Of a stretch of DNA of 64,000 nucleotides, positions 39,098 to 40,608 are shown in pieces. Both the position numbers and the translations under genes were made by a program. The DNA is taken from NCBI GenBank assembly GCA_026126205.1, contig JAHCJP010000002.1, positions 62,001 through 126,000 of the forward strand. Reading direction: 5' to 3'. Below the pieces are notes generated by a model. The model made no database searches, had not been told where the DNA came from, and saw only the letters and a list, made by a program, of their open reading frames with translations. How positions within the stretch are numbered: position 1 is the stretch's first letter; every line of letters starts with the position of its first letter. Source of the stretch: Maricaulaceae bacterium. Lineage in GTDB: Bacteria; Pseudomonadota; Alphaproteobacteria; Caulobacterales; Maricaulaceae.

Positions 39098-39625
39098 ATG
39101 GACATGCCGGCCGCAACACCCCGCCTGAAACTGCGGATGTTCGACATGGCGGACGCGCCGCACATCGCCCGCCTGTGCGGCGATTACGGCGTCGCCAGCA
39201 TGATCGGCGGCGCCCCGCATCCCTATCCGCTGCTGGCGGCGGAGCTGTGGGTGCTCACCGCCCGCGCCGCCTTCGGCCGCAAGCCGAAACATGATTTCGC
39301 GGTCGAGAGCGGGGATGGAGAGCTGGCCGGCGCCATGACGGTGTTCAAGCGCGGGCCGGACGCGGAATGGGAGCTGGGCTACTGGACCGGGCGGCCATAC
39401 TGGGGACGCGGCTACGCCACCGAGGCCGGGCGGGCGGTGATGAACTGGGCGCGCAGCGCGCTGGGCGCAAGCCGCATGGTCGCCTGCCATAATGACGACA
39501 ACCCGGCCTCGGGCCGTGTGCTGCAGAAGCTCGGCTTTTGCTACACCGGCGGCGAAAAGCGGCTTTATTCCATCGTGCGCGGCGCGCGGGTGCGGCTGCT
39601 GGACATGGTGGCGGACTATTCCTGA
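39098..39625 (+). CDS. GNAT-family N-acetyltransferase (RimJ/RimL-like)
   Basis: 175 residues. Acetyl-CoA-dependent N-acetyltransferase. TPRLKLRMFDMADAPHIARLCGDYGVASMIGG is the RimJ/RimL-type start; WELGYWTGRPYWGRGYATEAGRAVMNWA is the acetyl-CoA binding motif A (R/Q-x2-G-x-G/A is RPYWGRGYA here), and NPASGRVLQKLGFCYTGG is motif B. The acceptor is unknown. A GNAT gene between rpmA and obgE is usual in this class, so a ribosome-linked substrate is plausible. The ATG at 39098 has GGTGGAGA upstream. Its 3' end overlaps the EF-hand gene by 10 bases. Confidence 0.85.
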   Translation: MDMPAATPRLKLRMFDMADAPHIARLCGDYGVASMIGGAPHPYPLLAAELWVLTARAAFGRKPKHDFAVESGDGELAGAMTVFKRGPDAEWELGYWTGRPYWGRGYATEAGRAVMNWARSALGASRMVACHNDDNPASGRVLQKLGFCYTGGEKRLYSIVRGARVRLLDMVADYS

Positions 39626-40608
39626 AATTCGCCATAGGACGCCGCCGCGTATTCGCGGAAGCTGATCACGCCGTCGCCAGCGCGGTCCAAGTACTCGAAC
39701 GAGCTCAAGGCCCGCGCCGCTAGGTCTTGCTGCGTCCGCTGTGAAAGCGGCGTCGTGCGCCGGTCCGGCCCCAGTGATTGCGCGAAAGCGACGCAGGCTT
39801 CCGGCGCCTCCGCGCGCGCCGGCTCCACAAAACTGTCTTCCGCCATGCCTTCCGGCTGCGGACGGCGCACCTCGGGGCGCGGGCGCGCCTGGCCGGTTCC
39901 GACCGCCACGAATTCCTCGGCCGTGACCACGCCGTCACCGTCCAGGTCGAACTGGTCAAACGTCCAGCGGGCGAGCGCATGTCGGTGACGCGAGAACTCC
40001 TCCAGGCTGACATAGCCGTCGCCGTTCGCATCCATCCCGCGGAACCATCTGGTGATGTTGTTGCGAACCAGCGCCGTCATCTCGTCGCGGCAGGGGTCGC
40101 CCGCCGGCAACACCACGATGTCCTGCGCCGCGCCGCTCAGGGGCGCGTACCTTGCTGTTATGCCGAAAATCTGGCCGGAACTGCTGGCATGCTGGCCATA
40201 ATAGAGATTGCCGGCCGCATCATGGACATCGTCCGGCCAGCGGAAAACGCGCTGGTATTCCGTCAGCGTCAGGCGGCCGTCGCCATCGGCGTCCAGCGCG
40301 GCGAAGATATGGGCGTCAAAGCCTTGCCATTCCGGCGGCTCGCCGGCGGGCGAGAGCAGCAGAACGGCCGGCAGGGCGGTGGCGGTCAGGGCGGTCGCGA
40401 TCATGGCTTTTCTCCTCAGCGGCGCGCCGGCGGCCCAGGACGAGACCCGGCGCATGTGGTTGCGAAGCACCGAACTGGCCGAGCGCCCGCGCCGGTCGCA
40501 GGCGCCCATAAAGGCCGCCTTCTCCTCGGGGGTGACGCGCACCTCCACCGTTTCGGTCTTCTTCGAAAACCGCTTGCGGCGGGGCGTTTGATCGGCTCCT
40601 TCGGTCAT
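39616..40608 (-). CDS. RHH-TM-EF-hand fusion protein
   Basis: 330 residues with an unusual order of parts. Residues ~15-55 ([37 protein letters not shown]) look like a ribbon-helix-helix or mobilisation-type DNA-binding domain. Residues ~67-87 ([21 protein letters not shown]) form one membrane helix. The outer part has four EF-hand loops: [12 protein letters not shown] (106-117), [12 protein letters not shown] (193-204), [12 protein letters not shown] (221-232) and a degenerate [12 protein letters not shown] (308-319). The first three carry D, D/N, D and E at the calcium positions. This suggests a membrane protein with calcium-binding periplasmic domains and a cytoplasmic nucleic-acid-binding tail. 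The ATG at 40608 starts the RHH region; 20 more upstream residues are open but unlikely. Divergent from obgE. Confidence 0.75.

Follow-up and report, generated by a model that had tools for sequence, protein, structure and literature searches.

The gene on the minus strand at 39616-40608 of the window, by which we mean the whole 64,000-nucleotide stretch of Maricaulaceae DNA analysed, probably encodes a membrane-tethered, autoregulating one-component transcription regulator of the ribbon-helix-helix (RHH) type, which carries a nested second product and reports a periplasmic state to its RHH domain; we place the probability of this reading at about 0.65. A cytoplasmic N-terminal RHH dimer would bind its own promoter at TGTCCGGACA palindromes (window 40732-40766), a single hydrophobic helix would link it to a periplasmic EF-hand domain, and translation from a further ribosome-binding site, with its start at codon 69, would give rise to an RHH-less EF-hand protein. 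As both forms would be encoded by one mRNA, the RHH domain would control the supply of both. The periplasmic domain most likely signals its own state, whether calcium or export and processing, across the membrane to the RHH dimer. We presume repression rather than activation, a topology with the RHH domain inside and the EF-hands in the periplasm, and calcium occupancy or export state as the controlling signal. The features of the locus, in window coordinates, are:

40847-41905, plus strand: obgE, the divergent neighbour with a common intergenic region.
40753-40766, no strand: operator-like palindrome AATGTCCGGACACG, with a perfect TGTCCGGACA core and 2 mismatches against the 14-mer (Maricaulaceae-derived motif).
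40732-40745, no strand: a weaker second copy of the operator, CGCGCCGGGACACG, with 3 mismatches and at a distance of 21 bp (Maricaulaceae-derived motif).
40613-40616, minus strand: GGAG, a Shine-Dalgarno-like element ahead of the first start (duplex with the anti-SD, -6.4 kcal/mol).
39616-40608, minus strand: the RHH-TM-EF gene, 330 aa, ATG at 40608 (ORF and conservation across Alphaproteobacteria).
40423-40563, minus strand: RHH domain, residues 16-62 (profile, Pfam and structure matches).
40412-40417, minus strand: internal Shine-Dalgarno GAGGAG, across codons CTG AGG AGA, 7 nt before codon 69.
40402-40404, minus strand: internal ATG at codon 69, where an RHH-less product of 262 aa is predicted to begin.
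40351-40410, minus strand: hydrophobic helix, residues 67-86, a membrane anchor or signal-like segment.
39619-40350, minus strand: predicted periplasmic part, residues 87-330 (single hydrophobic segment with positive residues ahead of it).
40258-40293, minus strand: EF loop 1, residues 106-117 (Pfam and loop pattern).
39997-40032, minus strand: EF loop 2, residues 193-204 (Pfam and loop pattern).
39913-39948, minus strand: EF loop 3, residues 221-232 (Pfam and loop pattern).
39652-39687, minus strand: EF loop 4, residues 308-319, degenerate, Ala at loop position 3 (Pfam and loop pattern).

An earlier note, made from the sequence, had proposed the order RHH domain, membrane helix, three canonical EF-hands and one degenerate; this order was borne out and is conserved in relatives. 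Pfam detected four EF-hand stretches in the window protein (E 7.7e-24), whose 12-residue DxDxDG loops with their ligands place it among EF-hand proteins; three loops are canonical, and the fourth is rightly called degenerate because of the Ala at its position 3. Matches to the NCBIfam models for Lanmodulin and XopAW fell far under cut-off and reflect common EF-hands only. Residues 67-86 form the single hydrophobic segment (Kyte-Doolittle mean up to 1.89), a region of low confidence in the AF2 model. A DNA-binding domain, one membrane helix and an extracytoplasmic domain thus stand on one chain, the layout of transmembrane one-component regulators, given the presumed topology. The periplasmic part also contains C173 (window 40092-40090), invariant in Maricaulaceae relatives, and a second cysteine, residue 269, which aligns with a small shift; the pair may possibly form a disulfide. 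Tail to tail, the gene overlaps a convergent GNAT gene by 10 bp (window 39616-39625). Elsewhere in the window, three small tandem paralogous ORFs (36502-36933, 37065-37457 and 37509-37940), at least two of them lipoprotein-like, have the common pattern GEDG/GDDG-xLRDAxGNVxRE-xFVR.

The claim of an N-terminal RHH-like domain agrees with several kinds of comparison. By itself the window protein matched a NikA-like RHH model weakly at residues 16-46, under the Pfam cut-off; 24 of 51 family members matched RHH_1, and the profile of all 51 sequences matched RHH antitoxins in the PDB (DinJ 2e-5). AF2 modelled two helices in this part with pLDDT around or above 90, DSSP on the monomer model assigned the two helices and no strand, and the Foldseek/VIA neighbours were nearly all RHH proteins, at scores that are modest because the domain is so small. 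Both profile and fold matches therefore assign it to the RHH superfamily. K16, K17, E22, R24, K30, S45 and R49 are invariant.

The survey for the same fusion that had been suggested uncovered a conserved family across several alphaproteobacterial orders. A scan of contigs with the single window protein as query gave no match, and an alignment-based search yielded 71 family loci in Alphaproteobacteria; a strict search found the same domain order in 12 of 137 genomes of Maricaulaceae, its own included, and the architecture is kept in three genera of that family. Members occur in Maricaulis, Hyphobacterium, Glycocaulis, Caulobacter, Phenylobacterium, Brevundimonas, Sphingomonas, Ruegeria, Hyphomonas and Kordiimonas. 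A class-wide RHH search gave 28 of 387, a rough figure because about 13 candidates were scored per genome, and no match was found on plasmids. We divided the family into group A, which has a long periplasmic part with several EF-hands or a beta-type domain and includes the window protein, and group B, proteins of about 110 aa from Caulobacteraceae and Sphingomonas, mostly with one EF-hand; in the latter, one EF-hand per chain on a dimeric RHH protein would allow a two-chain EF-hand pair. There are also RHH-TM paralogues with another, non-EF periplasmic domain (L018:7041-7715, L019:7020-7691 and 7976-8650, L040, and L160:1326-1967 on the minus strand), some standing in tandem beside the EF-hand gene; those of L018 and L019 have an operator variant resembling CGTGTACCGACACG at about -126. 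Literature searches found no account of an RHH domain combined with a membrane helix and EF-hands, and a family of such regulators with its own operator is apparently undescribed.

That operator is a conserved palindrome, CGTGTCCGGACACG, upstream of family genes, often in tandem with copies 21-23 bp apart. It was found by eye on aligning Maricaulaceae upstream regions and then tested out of sample, where it occurred within 260 bp and with no more than 2 mismatches at 12 of 18 group A genes against 0 of 747 background windows, these being other windows of the same loci; randomly shuffled palindromes of equal composition averaged 0.04 with a maximum of 6, and all such counts come from related sequences that are not independent. 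Taken by itself the window site would be inconspicuous, since its copies are imperfect and the count in its own genome at 2 mismatches (20 sites) is close to that of the control (15). No regulon of operator sites was found in that genome, nor any sigma-70 promoter in a scan of the RHH/obgE intergenic region. In 7 genomes the exact tandem operator core is present, each time as a single occurrence, with no match for the control; the 385 class genomes sampled lack it, because second copies are often degenerate and few of those genomes hold the family. In another genome, a perfect site returned by the operator search lies upstream of a further RHH-TM paralogue (L160). A perfect 14/14 operator at about 2092 of L161 (Hyphomonas) has genes for a MarR-type regulator and a Nudix-type protein nearby, and this neighbourhood may be a further target. 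Searches of the literature for the operator core, or for RHH proteins with signal peptidase, returned nothing relevant.

Autoregulated RHH proteins typically have a palindromic operator in the promoter of their own gene. Binding of the RHH domain to the TGTCCGGACA-type operator is a prediction strongly supported by comparison, the kind of evidence on which the whole analysis draws, and the conservation of the operator makes the window protein very likely to be a DNA-binding regulator. Its action on its own promoter, or on the signal peptidase gene in relatives, is supported by where the sites lie. A one-protein route from periplasm to DNA, of the kind suggested earlier for external calcium, is, by virtue of the conserved operator and the domain order, a live candidate.

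The second product rests on a recurrent arrangement, a Shine-Dalgarno and start codon just ahead of the hydrophobic segment in group A. Under a rule-based test, which supersedes one on hand-picked sites, 38 of 42 group A genes have an in-frame ATG at the internal position, and anti-SD pairing is strong at 32 of these 38 last ATGs compared with 16% of 735 other ATGs; the same rule finds an in-frame ATG in 6 of 42 group B genes, 2 with a strong SD. When genes were clustered by RHH identity, the internal start was present in 23 of 29 clusters. Synonymous shuffling at the hand-picked sites gave p = 3e-10 over all genes combined; some genes scored strongly and others did not, and the value exaggerates the support, given that the genes are relatives and that the sites had been picked by eye. 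Initiation at this site to give an RHH-less EF-hand product in group A is thus predicted with strong support. SD-like sequences before helix-coding codons could slow ribosomes, and we considered it unlikely, if conceivable, that the internal Shine-Dalgarno is a translational pause aiding membrane targeting in place of a start: a well-spaced start codon accompanies it in nearly all group A genes, it is built in different codon registers with non-conserved residues, L020 keeps it with TTG in place of ATG, and single-EF relatives with the same kind of helix do without it. The converse, that codon 69 is the true gene start and the RHH reading an artefact, draws on the quality of the internal start and on the classic signal peptide that many relatives show from there, and is very improbable. 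No stop codon separates the RHH part from the internal start, and the RHH part, the best-conserved region of the family proteins, evolves under purifying selection: pairs with sufficient changes give dN/dS values of about 0.1 or below. Such conservation argues that the N terminus is no wrong start call; the homologues, which the earlier note had allowed might begin past the helix, include it.

The nature of the target and of the signal admits further readings beside an autoregulator reporting on the periplasm. That the obgE promoter could be a target, as had been proposed, stands insofar as the intergenic region between the RHH gene and obgE holds both window sites, which makes an effect on obgE possible, and the divergent arrangement is kept in most Maricaulaceae loci read. 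We nevertheless hold it improbable that the protein is mainly an obgE regulator and rejected obgE as the main target: it is not a conserved one, and in lineages whose loci showed no obgE beside these genes the operator tracks the RHH or signal peptidase gene. In group B the adjacent gene encodes signal peptidase I, convergent in Caulobacteraceae and in the same direction as the RHH gene at three Sphingomonas loci, and the operator precedes 35 of 37 signal peptidase genes, in both gene arrangements and typically at about -78 and -56 from the start (background 0 of 1127 windows). This adjacency favours a view with a real if minority chance of being right, namely that the protein senses export or signal peptidase capacity and not calcium: insertion and cleavage of a signal-peptide-like helix would set the location and DNA binding of the RHH domain, and the EF-hands would only aid folding of the tail. 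Signal peptidase acts as site-1 protease on the regulator RsiV of Bacillus subtilis, which offers a precedent (PMC7593790), and in group B 12 of 13 clusters have a P-[ASTGV]-x-A motif after the helix, against 24% expected. Maricaulaceae, with the window among them, largely lack the motif (1 of 11), which makes cleavage less likely for the window protein, while the EF loops are retained; its own genome has one signal peptidase gene, without operator, and a search of that genome for a second found none. As a tentative generalisation, for which we would not claim even odds, signal-peptide-bearing, calcium-binding RHH membrane regulators may control a dedicated signal peptidase I as a homeostatic sensor of export capacity, the window lineage having turned the system into an autoregulated gene with two nested products.

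Direct one-protein routes from the cell exterior to DNA are few, and both bacterial sensing of external calcium and the control of signal peptidase levels are poorly known. The predictions made here cover the order of domains, the specific operator, the second product and, in relatives, a target gene, which makes the idea testable with a Caulobacter laboratory strain.

A survey of transmembrane one-component regulators mentions neither ribbon nor EF-hand (PMC10269533). EfhP of Pseudomonas and CaBP of Caulobacter (PMC13171946) share extracytoplasmic EF-hands with the window protein and, unlike it, are not described as having a DNA-binding domain; the CaBP paper also names a C. vibrioides protein as a probable transmembrane EF-hand protein, in passages that make no mention of an RHH domain. 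RsiV resembles the family in being a single-pass regulator with a possible signal peptidase site, and in relatives of the window protein the operator stands at the peptidase gene itself; RsiV is, however, an anti-sigma factor, and we claim no homology. The NikA/RelB/CopG-type proteins have the RHH fold and fingerprint in common with the window protein, whereas their matched solved structures are without a fused membrane helix or calcium hands. ToxR, CadC and TcpP share the plan that we propose, combining a cytoplasmic DNA-binding domain, one membrane helix and a periplasmic sensor with no phosphorelay; regulators of their type have winged-helix DNA-binding domains, where the window protein pairs an RHH domain with EF-hands.
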